Source of the DNA: Hordeum vulgare subsp. vulgare
Taxonomy: Eukaryota > Streptophyta > Magnoliopsida > Poales > Poaceae
Assembly: GCF_904849725.1 (NCBI RefSeq)
Contig: NC_058518.1
Coordinates: forward strand, 508,883,225 to 508,947,224
DNA length: 64,000 bases
Direction of reading: 5' to 3'
Positions 46,820-62,945 of this stretch are shown here, piece after piece; position 1 is the first letter of the stretch, and every line of letters begins with the position of its first letter. Position numbers and translations under genes: made by a program. Under the pieces are notes generated by a model. That model did not search any database and had not been told where the DNA came from. It was given only the letters and a program-made list of their open reading frames with translations.

Positions 46820-47230
46820 TCAGCGAGCTCGCCCCGATCTGGAAGGGAAACCAGGCGTCGAACGAGAAAGATGATATGTTTCCTGCTGGCGATCCCTGGT
46901 TCCCAGTTTTATTTGCTCAGTTTTTTCCTCGTACGTAACTGAGTCCGATCTGGGAACAACAAGATTTTCTGGGCTATCAACCCAGCACAACTGGGCCTCA
47001 TACCCAGCTGTGTCAGGCCCTTGCAATTCAATTGATGGCCCATCTTGGCCAAACAAAGAATTCAAATGATGCATCCTTTTTTCACGGATCCCGAGATCTG
47101 ACTGGGATGAGGCCGTCGCCGGCGGACGCACCACCGACCCAGCTCGATTATTCTTCCGTTGGACTGGGACGGCCTTCCAAGAATGAATGAAATCAGCTAG
47201 TGTCAATGCCGGTAGTCGTAGCGCCAGCGA

Positions 47231-47731
47231 GGTGACCCGGCGAGCGTGGTCCGAGAAGGACACGACGCTGAGCCGATCGGCGGGGCCAAGGTTGTCCACG
47301 ACGAACCCCATCGCCTCCTTCAGTAGCTCGACCTTCCGTCCCTCCATGCTCCCGCAGACGTCCAGCGCCGTCACGAGGTCGACGAGCGTGTTTTCGGCGG
47401 TGGACGCCACGCCGGGAGCCTTGGCGTGCACCAGCACGGCGAAGCCATCGTGAGCAGTGCCCCTCGGGACGGCCGGAAACTCGCAGTGTGTCTTGAGGAC
47501 GAGCGCTTCTTCAACGACGCTCCGGCCATCGAGTGGAGGATCCTCGATAGGCTCGTCGTCGTCGTACATGCACGTTTTAGACGACGGCGGCTGGAACTAG
47601 AAGCTTGTCTCCGTAGGCTCCGGCTCGGCGGAGGAGACGCCGAACGTGCCGGTGCGCGCGGCGTCGCAGACTGGGCATGTGGCGGCGGCGCCGGAGCGGG
47701 GGTGGAAGCAGGCGGGGCACCGGCTCTCCAT
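47231..47731 (-). pseudogene. RING/VWA (WAV3-like) ubiquitin ligase gene remnant
   Basis: From an ATG at 47731 the frame reads MESRCPACFHPRSG and TCPVCDAARTG (paired CX2C motifs). It stops at a TAG (47597-47599), then continues in the same frame with MYDDDEPIEDPPLDG, DGFAVLVHAKAPG, TALDVCGSM and GPADRLSVVSFSDHARRVT. The latter part is the start of a von Willebrand A domain as found in plant WAV3-type E3 ligases. The metal-site motif DxSxS is DVCGS here, so one Ser is Cys. Similarity ends near 47230, where LINE 2 begins; the rest of the domain is absent. A hAT element sits 13 bp upstream of the ATG, and the old 5' leader with TATA box resumes at 52937. The zinc-binding part is shorter than a standard RING, so the first exon may also be damaged. 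It is a remnant, not a working gene. Confidence 0.65.
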
Positions 47732-47736
47732 ATGTG

Positions 47737-47744
47737 GATGGAGC
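47737..47744. repeat. hAT target site duplication, left copy
   Basis: GATGGAGC pairs with GAAGGAGC at 52937-52944 (7 of 8 identical). Eight base pairs is the hAT length. Confidence 0.8.
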
Positions 47745-47756
47745 TCAGCCTGGACA

Positions 47757-47915
47757 CGGTCCGGTCCGGTCCGGTCCCGGTCCGGTCCGGCGTTTGGACC
47801 GGCCGGCGGCGGTCCGGACCGGACCGGACCGAGTTCTCCAACGGGCTGCTTTCCAAGGACCGGACCGTTTTAGAGCTGGCTCGGTCAAGCTTTTCTGGAC
47901 CGACTGGACCGATTC
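47757..47915. promoter_or_regulatory. hAT subterminal repeat cluster, left
   Basis: GGTCCGG/CCGGACC occurs many times in both orientations within about 160 bp of the terminus, for example the run starting GGTCCGGTCCGGTCCGGTCC. In hAT elements such clusters bind transposase. A matching cluster lies at 52794-52850. Confidence 0.65.
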
Positions 47916-48678
47916 CAGAACCAGGTCGAGCTGCCAGCAGACTTTCAGAGCAACAGCAGCAGAATTACAACAGCAAAAAGAATACTTGATGCATGTCCAG
48001 ATGTCCTGATTACAGAAGCAGCAGTAGAATTACAACAGCAAGAACTACAGCAACATACATAGAATTACAGCAGCAGAATTTCACTAGCAACAGCAGTAGA
48101 ATTACAGCAGCAAGAACTATAGCAGAATTTCAATAGCAACGGCAGTAGAATTACAGCAGTAGAATTACAGCAGCAGTGACACTAGAGACTAGACTGAAAG
48201 AAAATACAGCTCCAGCTGCTGCTTAGTGTTATTTACCTGCAGTTAGCTGTTGCTGCTTCAGTTTAAGGTCTAGTTAGCTGCTGTTTAGGCATGTATTGAT
48301 TGTGGAGAGCAAAAAAAAGTACAAATACTCTGGTCAAGCTTTTTTAGACTGATTTAGATATTGTGGAGAGCAAAACAATTACAAATTCATTTGGACAGCA
48401 AGCAGGACTAAATTTGGACAGCATTTCACTTGTTTTTTGGACATCAAAACAACTGATTTAGATAGGAAACATAGCACAAATCAGATTCATAGCACAAATA
48501 TCACATCCACAAACATAAAGTCTTTTCATCATTCAACGACACGATTACAAACTTGCAATGAAAATTTAGAGTCCAAGTCAATTGACAAGTTGAATATAAC
48601 ACAAATGAGAGGTTCATCTCCAAAGTTGCAATAACAATTCATAGTTCATGACTCGACAAGTTCGAACATACCACAAAT
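47916..48678. other. hAT 3' non-coding region with CAG-rich imperfect repeats
   Basis: Repeated pieces of the form GCAGTAGAATTACAGCAG are scattered over 47955-48190, then AT-rich sequence reaches the transposase stop codon at 48679. No other frame of note. Confidence 0.6.
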
Positions 48679-49430
48679 TCAATCATTGATCTCCTCCACA
48701 ACGGGTAACTTGATGGTCTCAACATCATCTTCTTCATTCTCATCCCTTGGCTACAAGTGTGTAAGTTAGACAATTATCATATCACATACAACAAGACCAA
48801 AATTGGCAAGGAAGATACTCGAAACATACCACCATATTCAAGTCAACGTGTGCACCCTTGATATAACTTGCAGCACAAACTAACGCCTCTACCATAACCG
48901 GCTTTAAAGAACTCTGGTAGGCATCTAGTATGAGAAGTAGTTCGAGGATGAGAAGTTGACAAGTTTATATCTAAAGTTCATTTGTAGGAGTTGACATACC
49001 TAAAATCCGTCCGGTCGTGCTGAAGGTAGATTCCGAAGACACGGAGGTAGCCGGCATAGCAAGGAACCTCTTGGCTATCTTGGCCATAATTGGGTATCTA
49101 AGAGCATTAATCTTCCACCAATCAAGAATATCAAGACATGTATCGGCAGCGGCAACTTCATCCTCTAAGTAGTTCCTCAACTCACTCTTTGATACTCTTG
49201 TTAAACGGGCTGATAAGAAGGACTGGTACCCAGCTTGAACCGGGATACTATGAATGCTTGTAGTTGTAGATGAAGAACTTGCTCCATTTCCAACTCGCTT
49301 ATCTTGGGCAACACATTTGTCATACAAGGCCTCCAACTGTTTCTTCACATCACTCATTTCATTTCTTAACCTCGCAGTTTCTTTTCCATATAGTTCTCCA
49401 AAGGCCCACTCTATGTAATTCATCTTGTAC

Positions 49431-49586
49431 CTAGGAGAAAATTAGCAAGTTTTCTATTAAAAACAGCAAGTATTCTATTAAAAACAGCAAGTATTCTATT
49501 AAAAACAGCAACCAGGAATTACTATTCGTACTTAATAAATCTGATTAAAACAGCAAGTTGATGAACATAAGTTGATTAAAACATAC
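49431..49586 (-). repeat. Transposase intron 4 with 21-bp tandem repeats
   Basis: GT at 49586 and AG at 49431 delimit the 156-bp intron. It contains three to four copies of a 21-bp unit (plus strand AACAGCAAGTATTCTATT flanked by A), the same unit as in intron 2. Confidence 0.85.
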
Positions 49587-50172
49587 CGTGGATCAAAGAT
49601 GGTTGCAATCACCATGTAATCGGTCCTTTCTTCCCAATATTTGTCGAACTTATCCAACATATCTTCACCCATTTGCTTGTAGTGCTCACTATCACTATCA
49701 ATTGCATGTTTGATTGCAATCTTGACACCAACAATGTATGGGTAGAAGATGTTCGAAGTGGGATATAAACTTCCTAAAAATGCTTTTGTCACCTCGGCCA
49801 AGCTCTTAAGTAATGGAGAGATAAGGTCATACATGTCTCACTCCGCGTTTGTCGATGCCCAAGCATAGTTGGCATTGGAGTTAGCATGAGAGGTCAAGGC
49901 TTCCTTGTATTGACGGGCAGTGCTAATCATCTTATAGGTTGAACTCCACCTTGTTTGACAATCTAGGTGTAAATGGTTGCCAACTTTAACACCCATGCTT
50001 TTGCAAGTGTCAACAAAAGCGTGGAGACGAGAAGGTGACCTCTTGAAGTACTTCACCGTCTCTCTCAAACTCTTTATCAAATTATCTAAGACATTTATGC
50101 CATCTTGCACCACCAAGTTGAGGATGTGTGCACAAAAACGGATACGAAAATATTGGTCTTCAAAGTCATTAC

Positions 50173-50290
50173 CTACAAGAGGTAACAAGCGTATGAGCAC
50201 AAGTAGCAAGCATAGGAATAGGACCACAAACAACAAGCATAGGAATAGGACCACAAACAACAAGCATAGGAACAAAATCAGCAAGCATAC
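50173..50290 (-). repeat. Transposase intron 3 with 27-bp tandem repeats
   Basis: The 118-bp intron (donor GTATGC, acceptor TTGTAG) is largely two and a half copies of a 27-bp unit containing CAAGCATAGGAATAGGACC. Joining the exons gives FYRRG-NDFEDQYF in frame. Confidence 0.85.
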
Positions 50291-50821
50291 CTCTCCGGTA
50301 GAATAACTTGGCCTTCAAAGCTTCGATTGCACCATCATTGTTTGAAGCGTTGTCTAGTGTGATGGACATAACTTTTGTCTCAATATTCCAATCTGTCACA
50401 CACGCATAGAGAGCATCCGCAATGACAATTCCAGTGTGAGGAGGATCCAACTCTAGGAAACCAAGTACACGGGTTTGGATCTTCCAATTATCATCTATAT
50501 AGTGTGCAACCACACACATGTAAGATAAGGTTTGGTTGCTTGTCCATAAATCCGTGGTTAGAGATATGGAGCTCACACCCCTTAGGACAGATTTAAGCAC
50601 CTCTTTTTCTTTCTTGTAAACCCTCAAGCACTCGGCTCGTATTGCCTTCCTTCCAATGGATTTATAATTTGGATTCATGCACTTCATTAGAATGTTGAAC
50701 CACTCATGTTCAACCATTCTAAATGAATACTCATGCACACATATCATCTTAGCAATAAGCTCCTTGATGATTCCTTGGTCATAATCAATGGAGGGGCTCA
50801 TCGTTGGAACACTTGATGTAC

Positions 50822-51035
50822 CTTGGTCATAAAAACAGCAATTATTCTATTAAAAACAACAAGTATTCTATTAAAAACAGCAATTATTCTATTAAAAACA
50901 GCAAGTATTCTATTAAAAACAGCAAGTATTCTATTAAAAACAGCAAGTATTCTAAGAAAATGAGCAAGTATTCTATTAAAAACAGCAAGTATTCTATTAA
51001 AACAGCAAGTATTCTATTAAAAACACTTGATGTAC
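50822..51035 (-). repeat. Transposase intron 2 made of 21-bp repeats, bounded by a duplication
   Basis: The 214-bp intron consists of about ten copies of the 21-bp unit also found in intron 4. GTACATCAAGTGTT at its donor end (51035-51022) is repeated at the start of the next exon (50821-50808), and ACCAATG before the donor resembles ACCAAG before the acceptor, a duplication of about 20 bp. Removing one duplicate plus the array leaves an uninterrupted coding sequence. Confidence 0.85.
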
Positions 51036-51951
51036 CATTGGTTTTGCGCAATTCAAGAGTTGTTTGGATGGCAGCCCTAGCCATCTTGGCCTTGTAATTC
51101 AAACATTTCAAATGATGCCTTCCAATAGTTGAGGTGCTGCCACCTTTCTCATACGCATACTTATTTGGACAATAATTGCAACAAGCCTTCAACACAATTT
51201 GTCCGGGGTTCTTCAACGATGGCTCCTTGACCTTGTGAAAATGGGCCCAAACATTTGATATTGTTCTAACATGAGCATTGGCTCTTGGCCTCTTGTTCTT
51301 TTTCTTCTTCCTTTCTCTTACTTCCTCCTAAGAGTCCTCACTAGAGACGACATGCACAAGTGATTCCTCGGACATAGTGTCACCACCTTCTAGTTCATCA
51401 GCTGATTCCTTGTACCCATCTGATGTATCAGCATCCGACATATCACCACCTCCTTGCAATGGCGGGACCACAAACAGATTCTGCTCGTCATATTCCTTGT
51501 CCTCGTCCTCGACGTCCTCGTCCTCGGCGTCCTCCTCCTTCTCCTCGTCGTGTAGCACCTACCACACATGATCACACAAATAAGGAAAAACATCTATATG
51601 GTTATATGGAAATATGGCTACATCAAGCATCAAGGAAAGGAATCATACATGACTAACATGAGGCAGCTTCGAGCCGGAGGCAGCGGCTTCCGCGGCACGC
51701 ACACCGGCACCGGTGCGATCGGGGAGACGCGGAGGAGGAGGAGGGTGTTTCTTTATGCTACAAATAAACTCTCCCATTGGGGCATTGGGAAATTCTTTTG
51801 CCTTCCTAATCCGCGCCTTATGCTTGCCCTTCCTCGGAACCGGTGGAGGCAGCGGCGAATCTTGCCTAATTAGGTAATTAACGCTCTTCGCCTTTGTCTT
51901 CGCCTTCCCATTCTCCTTCTCCTTAACAGCCGCTCCTTTTCCCTTCACCAT

Positions 51952-52793
51952 TCCCTACAAAAAAACCCACATCATAGTAGTTAGTTAGCACATAAATTAC
52001 AGCAGCGGCGGCAGCTAAAATTATAGGTAGCAGCGGCATATTTGGCTACTGAAACAATTAAAGCAGCAACATTTTCTTCAGAAAAAACAGATTTTTTCAG
52101 AAAAAACAGAGCAATGACCAGATTTCTTCAGAAACAATTAAACCAGCAGTCCATCCACGGATCCACCATCACCAGATTCTACACAAACATATTTGGCCAA
52201 TGAATCACCGATCCACCATCACCAGATCCACAATCACCTAATTCTACACCACCAGCACCAGCAGTTCAATAACAGTACACCACCAGTCCACCACCACCGG
52301 ATTGTACCCAAAGAGATTTCTACATGACTACGAATCTACGATGATAGCACCAGCCACCAGACATGACAGTGACCCCACCACCAGCAGCCACGACCACGAG
52401 GATTCAGAATAGAGCACGTGAAACGGGAAAGAAAGAACACAGTCAACCAGGGAGTGAGGGAAGGCGGCGTGGTTACCTCTTCCTCCTCGTGGTGCTCGAC
52501 GAGGAACCAGGGGAGGCGGGATCGACGGCGTGGTCTTGTTGCGACCCCGACGTGAGGACGATCCTCCAGCTTGGACTAAGAGGAGACGTCGTCGTCGACT
52601 CGTCGGTGAAGGAGAGAGGTCGCGGAGGAGCGGACGACGGTGCCATCGCCTTAGGGTTAGGGTTGAGGGGAGCCGTCGTTCTTCTACGAGCGAGGAGGAG
52701 GAGGGAATGAGCGAGGAGGGGGAACGAGCGTCCAGCGAGGAGGAGGCCACTCGTTTTGTTGTTATTGGGCTCGGTCCTTTTGTTCGGCCCGGT
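51952..52793 (-). other. hAT 5' non-coding region
   Basis: Sequence upstream of the transposase ATG. It is CAG/ACCAG-rich near 51990-52300 and GC-rich near 52450-52700. Overlapping frames exist, for example one starting MAPSSAPPRPLS at about 52646, but none shows a domain, and an upstream exon cannot be excluded. Confidence 0.5.
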
Positions 52794-52926
52794 TAAAGAC
52801 CGGACCGGACCGATTTTTTTCCATCTGAATTTATGGGTCCGGACCGGACTGTTTTCTTGTCGGGCCAGGACCGAGCGGGCCAAAATCGAACGGGCCACGA
52901 GCGGGCCTAAAAGCCCGCTCGGTACA
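52794..52926. promoter_or_regulatory. hAT subterminal repeat cluster, right
   Basis: AAGACCGGACCGGACCG, GGTCCGGACCGG and several GAGCGGGCC/CGGGCC motifs lie within 140 bp of the right terminus, mirroring the left cluster. Confidence 0.65.
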
Positions 52927-52936
52927 TCCAGGCTGA

Positions 52937-53047
52937 GAAGGAGCCGATCGATCGGCGAGAACCGGGAGATCGATCGAAAGTGTAAGCGGTGGTCTCTGGA
53001 TGGATGGATTCGAGTCGAAGATGTTTGAATCCGTGCACGTATTTATA
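52937..53047 (-). promoter_or_regulatory. Old core promoter and 5' leader of the WAV3-like gene
   Basis: On the minus strand CCTATAAATACG gives a good TATA box (53041-53047). A leader of about 70-80 bases, CT-rich with GATCGATC motifs, runs to the hAT target duplication at 52937. Without the hAT, the ATG at 47731 would lie about 80 nt from the expected transcription start. Confidence 0.6.
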
Positions 53048-55932: not shown

Positions 55933-56700
55933 AATTGCGTTCGGTGAATGCTAAGGAAGAAGCATCAATCGATATATGGAAGACATGCCAGCGCACGCAA
56001 ACTCGGTTCAGCCTAGTTTTCGGGTATTTTTGGTTATTCCGGTTCAGATAGTTCGGGTTATGAGTAATTCGGATATTTAAAAATGGAAATTAAATTTTTT
56101 TTGTAAAAAAAATTACTGAACCCAAATTACCCAAAATTTGGGTTACAGGTAATTCGGATACCCAAAAATCAAAAATATTCGGAACACACATCTACATTTG
56201 GTAAGAATAATTTGGATAGTGTTGGTATTTTGGATAGTATGGGTATTTTAATTAGTTTGGGTAACATGTAAGTGTAATAATAGCATGAGTAATTTGGCTA
56301 GTATGAATAATTCGGGTAGTATGGGTATTTCAGGTTTTCCACACTAAAACCCGAACCCTAATCCGAAAATCGAATGGTCAGGAAATGAGAACCGAACCCT
56401 AACCCGATACTGTATTACCCAACAATTCGGATAATTCAGTTTTGTTCGGGTTCGGATAGCGGGTTAGGGTACCCAAACGTCTAAGGTGAGACTCGGTACA
56501 GAGATTTAGGCTCATGCATGGATGGATAATTAGCCATGTTTAGCCGCAATGTTTGTGGACAAAGGCCCAACTAAGTTATTTAGCAATTAGCAAAGCCCAA
56601 ATACACGACAGTAGTTAAACACCCCTTTCATTCTCTCATATGTTATGTTCTTGTTTCTACTTCAGCATACAGCCTCATTTTGTTCCTTTTTAACGAGAAA
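55933..56700. repeat. 0.8-kb direct duplication, copy B, left part
   Basis: It matches 53101-53875 and ends TTTTTAACGAGAAA, where LINE 3 starts. It continues after the LINE at 59726-59763. Confidence 0.85.
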
Positions 56701-59699
56701 CGTAATAGAATCAAGAAGCTTATAAAGGATGATGGAGGCGTTGTGGAGGAAGGGGAGGAAATGGAGGCGGTGATAACTGCCTACTTTAAACGTTTGTTCA
56801 CCTCTCATACAGGGACACGCACGGATGAGCTGGTGCAGCATGCTTTCCAGCGAATTACTCCATATATGAATGATTCTCTCACAAAAGATTTCTCAGCTGC
56901 AGAGGTCAAGGCAGCGCTGGACTGCATTGGTGATCTAAAGGCCCCGGGATTAGACGGCATGCCTGCAGTATTCTATAAAACCTATTGGCAGCTGATTGGT
57001 GACCGCGTCACAAAGGAGGTGCTTCATGTCTTAAATGGAAATGCAATCCCAGAGGGGTGGAATGAGACGTGTGTGGTCCTGATCCCAAAGGTAAAGAACC
57101 CGGAGCGAATGAAAGATCTTCGTCTAATCAGTTTATGTAATGTGATTTACAAACTGGTTTCAAAGGTCCTAGCATATAGATTGAAACTTATTTTGCACGA
57201 GATCATAGCTCCAAATCAGAGTGCCTTTGTGTCGGGCCGGCTGATCACGGACAATATCCTGTTGGCCTATGAGGTTACTCACTTTATGCAAAACAAGAGG
57301 AGTGGGGCGACTGGTTATGCGGCACTAAAACTGGACATGAGTAAGGCATACGACCGTGTTGAGTGGCACTTCCTTGAAGCTATGATGAGAAAAATGGGGT
57401 TTGCGGAGAAGTGGGTAGACCTGATTATGAAATGCTGCTCCACCGTAAAGTACAGATTCAGAATTAATGGCTCGCTAACGGAGGAGATTGTGCCCCAAAG
57501 GGGTCTTCGCCAGGGGGACCCCATCTCACCGTATCTGTTTCATCTATGTGCTGAAGCTATTTTGTGTTTGATGAATAGTGCGGAATAGGATGGGAGGCTG
57601 GAGGGGGTCAAAATATGCCAGGCTGCTCCAAGTTTTAATCACCTACTGTTTGCTGATGACTCGTTAATCCTTCTGAAAGTTTCAGAGGACAGTTCTTCTC
57701 ATCTGCAAAATGTGTTATCTCTTTATGAGGATTGCTCGGGGCAGACAGTTAATGTGGACAAGACGTCGATTATGTTTAGTAAAAACACAAACGGACGAGA
57801 GAAGAGGGGCATGATGAATAAGTTAGATCTGAACCGTGAAAGCTGGAATGAAAGATACTTGGGGCTACCAGTTTATGTGGGGCAGTCACGTATAAAAGTG
57901 TTTAGCTATCTAAAGGACAGAATTTGGCACAAAATACAGGGATGGAAGGAGAAGATGCTATTGAAGGCAGGCAAAGAAATCCTCATAAAGGCCTATGCAC
58001 AGGCTATTCCCACGTTTGCGATGTCCGTCTTTGATATTACAAAGGGGCTGTGTGAACAAATCTCGGCGATGGTGGGTAGATACTTCTGGGCACAGCAAGA
58101 CAAAGAGAATAAAATCCACTGGCTGTCTTGGGAAAAGCTGACGATGTCAAAGAAGGAGGGGGACTCGGGTATAAGGATCTACACACCTTTAACCTGGCGA
58201 TGCTCGCAAAACAAGGATGGAGAATGCTGAATCATCCGGACTCGTTGTGTGCCAGGGTTTTGAAGGTGAAATACTTCCCAACTTCGGATATTTTGAATGC
58301 TGAACCAAAAGAAGGTATGTCATACACTTGGCGAAGTATCTTAAAAGGGCTCGAGGTGCTAAAGGCTGGAGTTATCAAGAGGGTCGGGGATGGTTCAACC
58401 ATTAATATCTGGCTAGATCCCTGGCTGCCGAGGAACTGGTCGAGGACGCCAATTACTCCAAGAAGAAACATCATTGTACAGACTGTGGAGGAACTAATGG
58501 ATCCGTTCCAGGGTGGATGGGCTGTTGCACTGGTAAATGATATATTTGGCCACCAAGACTCATAGCTTATCCTTGCACTCCCGATCAGACCAGACATGGA
58601 AGATACTTTGGCCTGGTTCCCAGATCACAGGGGATCTTTCCCCGTCAGATCTGCATACAAACTGAGCAGAAAAGTGGCGAGTGTGGACTCAGGCGAGCAA
58701 GGCACTTGTGATGGGCAGTATTTTAAGTGGCAAGCTATCTGGGATGCTCCGTGTCCTTTGAAAATACAACAGTTTCTCTGGAGAATCGCTCATAATAGCC
58801 TCCCTGTCCGTCGGAACTTGGTCAAAAAAGGGGTGAAAGTGGATACAATATGCCCTGTCTGCCACCGGTTTGACGAGGACGGTGCCCACATGCTCCTGAA
58901 GTGCAAACCAGTGAAGAAGTTGTGGCGGGAACTACAGCTCGAAGAACAGAGATTAGTCTGGGCCCAGTTTGAAGATCCCAGGCACCTAGTGGAGAACATC
59001 CTCCAGCTGCAGGAAACAAAGCTACTGACGGCAATCTCCTTATGCTGGAACTGGTGGTGCACAAGAAATAAAGTTAATGCGGAAAAGAAATCTTTCACAC
59101 ATGACCAGATCATGCTACAGACTAGGCGATTAGCTTTGGAGTTCCAGGACTACTTTAGTAAGCAAGAGAAGAAGAAGGCAGTCGAAGTCGTGGTGTGGAA
59201 GCTACCATGCACGGACATGATCAAAATAAATATTGACGGTAGCTTCTTTAAAGCAGCTGGTCACGGAGGCTGGGGAGTGGTGGCCCGAGATGCTGATGGG
59301 GATGTCTGTTTCTCAGCTGCTGGTAAACTGAACCATGCCCAGAATGCACTTCAAACTGAAGCCGAAGCATGTATCAAAGCATTGGGGTTTGCTCGGGAGT
59401 ACGGTATGCAACGGGTACAGATTGAAATTGATGCTCAGATGCTCGTCAAAGCAATTTCATCGGCGGACCTGGATCTATCCCCAAATGATGTGATGCTTCG
59501 TGAGATTAAAGTGCAAGTTTTCTTACACTTTAACAGCTTTTCCATGTCTTATTGCCCAAGGACATGTAATAAAGTAGCACATGCACTAGCGAGTTTTGGT
59601 GCGAAGGTGGTCGTGGAATCCCAAGTCGTATGGCCGGGCCGCGTACCTACCTCCGCCCGAGACCTTGTGGCCAACGATTTAGTTGCGCACGTTGCTTAA
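56701..59699 (+). pseudogene. LINE 3 ORF2: reverse transcriptase and RNase H, broken
   Basis: The RT part has KAPGLDGMPAVFYKTYW (near 56940), PNQSAFVSGRLITDNILL (near 57215), GLRQGDPISPYLF (near 57505) and, after an in-frame TAG at 57586, the active-site text HLLFADDSLIL (near 57640). A frameshift near 58165 and a TAG at 58563 break the connecting region. The zinc-binding part is WKAIWDAPCPLKIQQFLW-like with CPVCHRFDEDGAHMLLKC near 58850. The C-terminus is an RNase H domain, IKINIDGSFFKAAGHGGWG (near 59225), QTEAEACIKAL and QIEIDAQMLVKAI, keeping the Asp, Glu and Asp catalytic positions. RNase H in plant LINEs is known for a subset of lineages. The endonuclease is missing. Confidence 0.85.
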
Positions 59700-62042: not shown

Positions 62043-62945
62043 TTTAATATATGTAAAAATTATGAAATTCTGAACAAATTTCAAAACAGCGATTTATTTT
62101 TAAGTTTTGAAACACATTTGAAAAATGGAACATTTACTGATATTCCGAACAAAAAATTATAACTGCAGACATTTTCTCAATTTCTGAACAATTTTCGGCA
62201 ACAGCAACATTTTTTAATATATGTAAAATTATGAAATTCTGAACAAATTTGGAAACCGTGATCATTTTTTGAATTCTTGAAAACACATTTGAAAAATGGA
62301 ACATTTCATGATATTCCAAACAAAAAAAATTAACTGCGGACATTTTCTCAATTTCTGAACAATTTTCGGCAACAGCAACATTTCTCAATATATGTAAAAT
62401 TAAGAAATTCTGAACAAATTTTACAACCCCAAACATTTTTTGAATTCTTGAAAACACATTTGAAAAATAGAACATTTTCTGATATTCCGAACAAAAATTT
62501 ATAACTGCGGACATTTTCTCAATTTCTGAACAATTTTCGGCAACAGAAACATTTTTTAATATATGTAAAATTATGAAATTCTGAACAAATTTTGCAACCA
62601 GAAACATTTTTTGAATTCTTGAATACACATTTAAAAAATGGAACATTTCCTGATATTCTGAACAAAAATTTATATCTGCGGACATTTTCTCAATTTCTGA
62701 ACAATTTTCGGCAACAACAACATTTTTTAATATATGTACAAATTATGAAATTATGAACAAATTTTGCAACCGTAAACATTTTTTGAATTTTTGAAAACAC
62801 ATTTTAAAAATGAAACATTTCCTGATATTCCGAACAAAAATTTATAACTGCAGACATTTTCTCAATTTCTGAACAATTTTTGGCAATGGGAACATTTTTT
62901 TAATATATGTACAAATTATGAAATTCTGAATAAATTTTGAAATGG
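62043..62945. repeat. 171-bp tandem repeat array, about 5 copies
   Basis: The marker CTCAATTTCTGAACAATTTT occurs at 62176, 62347, 62518, 62689 and 62861, a spacing of 171, 171, 171 and 172. Each unit holds ACATTTTTTAATATATGTA, GAAATTCTGAACAAATTT, a TGAATTCTTGAAAACAC block and a GATATTCCGAACAAAAA block. A stray partial unit lies at about 61858-61908. Because 171 is a multiple of three, the minus strand stays open for 183 codons; this is not a gene. Confidence 0.9.

Follow-up and report, generated by a model that had tools for sequence, protein, structure and literature searches.

The origin of new spliceosomal introns is an old question, and few recent cases show the state before, the state after and the source of the sequence together. 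Zhuo is said to have traced introns to tandem arrays in 2007. The barley locus described here poses the question in a concrete form: how did the gene of a transposon come to contain an interval that looks like an intron, consists almost wholly of a minisatellite and is bordered by repeated coding text? The literature offers precedents. Tandem genomic duplication is represented by a potato RdRp gene, with an ATP2A1 case described alongside (PMC4974935), and is covered by a review (PMC3443670); intron gain in the course of double-strand-break repair has been described for Daphnia neointrons (PMC4202315) and for Drosophila (PMC3296678).

A hAT element with an array-filled intron

The window, i.e. 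the whole 64-kb stretch of DNA that was analysed (C1:508883225-508947224), contains a hAT transposon of 5192 bp on the minus strand (47745-52936), recognised by reading both termini and by its length, target sites and hAT domains. The 10-bp terminal inverted repeat TCAGCCTGGA is found at both ends, and many copies are flanked by exact 8-bp target-site duplications; in the window copy, the left (47737-47744, GATGGAGC) and right (52937-52944, GAAGGAGC) copies of the duplication agree in seven of eight bases. The transposase has the domains of the hAT superfamily, namely zf-BED, hAT RNase-H-like and hAT C-terminal dimerisation (PF14372 3.2e-22, PF05699 2.9e-16, PF02892 2.8e-5), and one Hordeum vulgare protein record shows 100% identity across 70% of the query region. 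The 91 related proteins gave no intron information and served only for the family assignment and for two barley records. The element resembles the zf-BED RICESLEEPER-like hAT transposons in its BED finger, its RNase-H-like and dimerisation domains and its 8-bp target-site duplication, and differs from them in the array-filled intron 2 of one subfamily here.

All five transposase exons read from the minus strand: exon 1 (51649-51951), exon 2 with the BED zinc finger (51036-51558), exon 3 (50291-50821), exon 4 (49587-50172) and exon 5 with the hAT dimerisation region (49000-49430). The window copy is itself damaged, since exon 2 has an in-frame TAG at codon 178 and exon 4 an in-frame TGA at codon 564. 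Intron 3 (50173-50290, 118 bp) is also found in copies without intron 2 and has a 27-bp repeat of its own, with one unit more in the window copy than in several relatives. An open frame adjoining the element (46820-47596, minus strand), which we take to resemble a von Willebrand A-type domain protein, is possibly the gene in which the hAT landed; the window also holds an open frame at 56584-57588 (plus strand), presumably similar to a reverse transcriptase, and a 171-bp tandem array of 5.2 copies at 62043-62939.

Intron 2 is a GT-AG interval of 214 bp with a GC content of 0.24 (50822-51035, minus strand). A preliminary description of the window had portrayed it as almost entirely a 21-bp array, with the coding text around the splice point present on both sides and with exact restoration of the frame, and all three observations hold. 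The array occupies 50830-51025 with 9.4 copies and 91% matches, its modal unit being ATACTTGCTGTTTTTAATAGA in gene sense. The 15-bp text GGTACATCAAGTGTT stands on the donor side (51036-51022) and again on the acceptor side (50822-50808), where it continues as exon 3; these two occurrences, one on each side of the array, are the only ones in the 64-kb window, and the composition predicts ~6e-7 per 500 bp. Joining 51036 to 50821 yields KTNG/TSSVPTMSPSIDYDQG in frame (a slash marks a joint), which reads KTNG/TSSVPTM in the window copy; the predicted nucleotide joint runs from AATG to GTACATCAAGTGTTCC, and the text there is that of the uninterrupted copies elsewhere in the genome.

The acceptor side has a further feature that is absent from the preliminary description. 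The last bases of the intron, TTATGACCAAG, form TTATGACCAAGG together with one exon base (50832-50821), and the same 12 bp recur 48 bp downstream in exon 3 (50784-50773, minus strand), the apparent source of the acceptor side; ~2e-5 occurrences per 222 bp are expected from composition. Because of this repetition, the two flanks of the array are the two ends of a single 48-bp in-frame exon segment. Compared with a head-to-tail duplication, both ends of the segment are doubled, and in one copy the array takes the place of the middle part. The ancestral exon text AATGGTACATC contains no AGGT that could supply both splice sites, as in a Rogers-type duplication, and CAAG/GTAC arises solely with the new joint. 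Nor does intron 2 carry the splice ends that intron transposition, by reverse splicing of a donor intron, would bring along: intron 4 starts with GTATGTTTTAATC and ends with TTTTCTCCTAG, and intron 2 has neither end.

Empty and filled sites in one genome

The window's own genome (4.21 Gb) was searched with intron 2 as query, which gave at least 59 matches in 29 loci including the window, and the 28 regions besides the window were retrieved. Exon 3 as query matched 28 places and added 11 loci, for a total of 40; L016 and L017 belong to a single element split in two, and L059 and L062 are one locus. An empty-site pattern also matches acceptor sides and was left out. All or part of intron 2 is present in 21 of the 40 loci and the exon is uninterrupted in eight, while 11 have a site that is missing or too diverged to be scored (L017, L018, L022, L024, L025, L030, in which exons 2 and 3 are absent, L041, L060, L061, L063 and L064). 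Thirteen of the 21 carriers have a complete intron, twelve of them in form B, including the window copy, and one, L020, in form A; L021 retains the acceptor side only, and L009, L019, L023, L033, L034, L035 and L036 the donor side only. Complete introns range from 68 bp (L028) to 327 bp (L012).

In eight of the 29 scorable loci, exon 2 abuts exon 3 (L031, L032, L050, L052, L056, L057, L058 and L059). The preliminary description had proposed that an alignment of hAT copies should uncover some that lack the intron and read straight through a single copy of the segment, and these eight are such copies. Empty and filled copies coexist in one genome because the host of the intron is a transposon. 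The exact 8-bp target-site duplications differ among at least 13 insertions with the intron (L013, L019 and L023 among them with a shortened 5′ end, and L016 read with L017 from two pieces), which argues that intron-bearing elements kept moving.

Some copies have multiplied by other means. L012 and L014 (C6:2.60 and 2.70 Mb) lie ~100 kb apart and have a common target-site duplication, GTCATGAT, so they are duplicated DNA and not two insertions. L033, L034 and L035 (C3:589.64, 589.69 and 589.75 Mb) are spaced at ~53.3 kb with the same flank after the element; one target-site duplication is common to L033 and L034, and L035 has the same right flank. These are therefore not separate insertions either, but a repeated larger segment carrying one hAT insertion. 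L016 and L017 (C3:17.26 and 17.28 Mb) are the halves of one hAT, with matching flanks CCCACCAA and ~10 kb of other DNA between them.

The distribution of the copies bears on whether the array is itself mobile. A direct repeat of exon text around an AT-rich insert is what an Introner-like element inserting with a 15-bp target-site duplication would leave. However, Introners place the same sequence as introns in many unrelated genes, and here the at least 59 intron matches are confined to 29 loci, all of which also contain exons of this hAT family; moreover, the array lacks any terminal structure, and its acceptor flank is exon-3 text, which is unexpected for a target-site duplication. We regard a mobile array as very improbable, and its confinement to loci of the hAT family led us to reject it.

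Polarity and age of the gain

The direction of change was read from a tree of 30 rows based on exons 1-5 and rooted on L056-L058. The empty copies L059, L031, L032 and L050 split off ahead of the intron-bearing group. The empty L052 and the intron-bearing L026 come next, side by side and in either order (81/75), and after them L028 (98/94) and the rest. Intron-bearing copies fall within one later group, and four empty copies, the outgroups L056-L059, are the most divergent scorable ones, with 91-95% identity in exon 3. A clade of form B alone is rejected (p-AU 2.8e-8), since form A and unscored copies nest within it; a branch with the empty copies on one side is not rejected (p-AU 0.247). Under outgroup rooting, no scored lineage with a clearly earlier branching carries the intron, and intron 2 is therefore a gain, its site being empty in outgroups and close relatives alike.

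The reverse history would make the intron old, with duplication and array added later and the empty copies arising by loss, e.g. if a deletion from one 15-bp repeat to the other had reconstituted the exon exactly and so produced a perfect empty site. It would need several independent exact losses and no early carrier, yet the outgroups L056-L058 read GGTCCAACAAGTG without an intron, and all scorable early branches are empty. The preliminary description had named an intron of non-repetitive sequence in this position in all related hAT families as the sign of an old intron; the copies examined have none. An old intron with secondary duplication is hardly credible, and the empty outgroups led to its rejection.

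The gain appears to be young. Mean divergence is 2.15% (229 pairs) within the intron-bearing group together with a few unscored copies, and this group differs by 2.87% from the nearest empty copy, L052. With a substitution rate of 1.3e-8 per site and year, the gain would date back roughly 0.8-1.1 million years, if this rate holds.

A sister intron as the probable source of the array

Intron 4 (49431-49586, 156 bp, minus strand) carries the same 21-bp unit at 49444-49511 and is present in copies without intron 2, outgroups included. In L030, L031 and L032 it contains 29 ATGC-type motifs and no ATAC-type motif; ATAC-type text ends intron 4 of the empty copy L050. In the intron-bearing copies, ATACTTGCTGTTTTTAATAGA is the commonest unit of both arrays (32 of 115 in intron 2, 26 of 127 in intron 4). 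L028, with its 68-bp intron 2, has the shortest array, and a 50-nt block across both array joints is an exact match to its own intron 4, ~1.36 kb downstream; the longest exact matches between introns 2 and 4 are 58 nt in L026, 61 nt in L015 and 22 nt in L027. From these comparisons intron 4 is the older of the two, and an intron 4 of this lineage was most likely the template for the array of intron 2.

Intron 4 of L050 measures ~593 bp and is mostly non-repetitive, perhaps owing to an insertion. In L009, L019, L023 and L036 (C3:346, C1:500, C3:85 and C7:565 Mb), recombination between the intron-2 and intron-4 arrays has removed exons 3 and 4, so that exons 2 and 5 are now separated by a single fused array intron. 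Since the two arrays recombine, the sharing of units could in part reflect later homogenisation. An Aegilops tauschii record (P0016) passes from exon-3 text through a hydrophobic repeat-like stretch to exon-5 text and suggests a similar array-mediated exon loss in a relative.

A proposed templated path from exon to intron

We consider it rather likely that a young intron was gained in one hAT subfamily by templated repair that ran from exon to intron 4 and back to exon, that the array grew afterwards, and that the interval is spliced. The starting point would be an uninterrupted exon reading AATGGTACATCAAGTGTTCCAACG. While a broken copy was being repaired or replicated, the growing strand would leave the exon at TGTT, copy 21-bp units of the element's own intron 4 from ~1.3 kb downstream, re-enter exon 3 at TTATGACCAAGG and then slip back by 48 bp to GGTACATC, so that the array would end up with a copy of the exon text on each side. 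The donor would be the first GGTACAT and the acceptor the copy of TTATGACCAAG/G, and their joining would restore the ancestral protein exactly. Later, the array would have grown from ~2 to ~14 units while the intron-bearing element kept transposing; the spread of complete introns from 68 to 327 bp is consistent with growth after insertion.

L028 can be parsed along this path: the exon runs to TGTT, intron-4 units follow, and exon 3 resumes at TTA before the return to GGTACATC. By reading, the junctions overlap by 4 (TGTT), 3 (TTA) and 2 (GG) bases. Such junctions resemble the templated filler of break repair or of template-switching replication. Abortive gap repair of hAT elements is a known idea. 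Of the two routes that the preliminary description had offered, local duplication or insertion with target duplication, the gain itself stands, on the eight empty copies and the rooted tree; the second flank, which carries the exon-3 text TTATGACCAAGG, and the array unit, which is that of intron 4, do not fit an insertion with target duplication. A local duplication combined with an array copied from the sister intron fits better.

The same end product might have been reached in two steps, with a 48-bp in-frame tandem duplication of the exon first (Rogers type, helped by the similarity of ACCAATGG and ACCAAGG) and with intron-4 units then replacing the middle of the first copy and giving a spliceable length. 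The outer ends do fit a simple 48-bp tandem duplication of a length divisible by three, and ACCAATGG and ACCAAGG sit at the two breakpoints. However, a second precise insertion-deletion is required, and the plain duplication junction is found in none of the collected loci; genome-wide it has no exact match and one two-mismatch match, on C7. We keep the two-step sequence as a tentative alternative, on the improbable side, to the single templated event.

Splicing and selection

Removal of intron 2 by splicing is suggested by the sequences in several ways. GT-AG is kept in 12 of the 13 complete introns; the donor GT has been lost in L026, a basal intron-bearing copy. The unspliced reading meets a stop before exon 3 in 12 of the 13 complete copies, L010 being the exception that reads through. 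Exons 1-5 of one intron-bearing copy, L015, are free of stops and frame-breaking indels in the alignment, and the same is true of L020 in its aligned parts. The barley record A0A8I6WYN8 joins KTNG/TSSV exactly at the predicted joint, in a model that may rest on prediction; a second barley record, P0059, reads into the array as protein.

No clear sign of purifying selection after the gain was found among the intron-bearing copies, in which omega is ~0.91 for shared variants and 1.02 for singletons; consensus comparisons give 0.66-0.81. The intron-bearing copies may therefore have been moved in trans. The omega of ~0.9-1.0 among intron-bearing copies, together with the donor G/GTACAT, which is weak at +5 against the donor consensus, and the two stop codons of the window copy, would also suit an unspliced repeat insertion that disrupts the coding sequence, with GT...AG as a by-product of the duplication and with copies moved by the transposase of others. 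Against this stand the many intron-bearing insertions at different target sites, the intact reading of L015, and a joint that restores the ancestral text exactly and is used by the barley gene model. An unspliced insertion thus seems to us possible but unlikely, and splicing of intron 2 remains part of the reading that we favour.

A second form of the intron

L020 departs from this pattern. Its array lies between GGTACA and TCAAGTGTT and lacks the flank duplication; L019 shares its left end. The L020 array, having no flank duplication, is not accounted for by the proposed path. A candidate donor, GTACAATAC, and a candidate acceptor, AATAG, would by reading keep the frame with one residue fewer. 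The right joint of L020 has one exact and four one-mismatch matches in the genome, compared with three for a reversed control pattern, and L020 is placed inside form B on the tree. Either an array was inserted a second time, into an empty copy, or two deletions gave rise to this form. It is conceivable, but rather doubtful, that one repair event copied the older intron and exon text with the protein unchanged and that L020, with its array at nearly the same point, is an independent second gain in the same linker; if true, intron birth from a resident intronic minisatellite would be a recurrent process in this hAT family.

Relation to known routes of intron gain

In the potato RdRp case (PMC4974935), as here, duplicated exonic text provides donor and acceptor and the peptide is unchanged after splicing; in the barley hAT, unlike that case, the ancestral exon has no AGGT at the site, and the intron is mostly an array from another intron and not a duplicated exon copy. 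With the break-repair introns of Daphnia (PMC4202315) and Drosophila (PMC3296678) the barley intron shares internal repeats and an insert that lies between short direct copies of neighbouring exon text (4-12 bp in Daphnia, 15 bp in barley); it differs in that the filler has a recognisable source, namely an older intron of its own gene together with exon text at a distance of 48 bp. The amphioxus 'mirage' minisatellites (PMC3087553) likewise place minisatellite-like repeats with a varying number of units in a proposed new intron, whereas the barley repeat is not a duplicated exon-intron boundary, and both empty and filled states have been found. Introners (PMC9860276) are alike in that a new intron takes splice sites from its insertion site; in contrast, the barley array is not dispersed among genes and makes no target-site duplication, and the Introner survey reports none in land plants (PMC9860276).

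Our literature search returned no title describing such a case, which, as far as sequence comparison can tell, appears to combine features of tandem genomic duplication, break-repair neointrons and minisatellite introns. One genome contains outgroup and close copies with an empty site, one copy whose array has two units and many whose arrays are longer, and the gene still shows the probable source array in another of its introns. As the element is young and present in many copies, this case in barley is directly testable.
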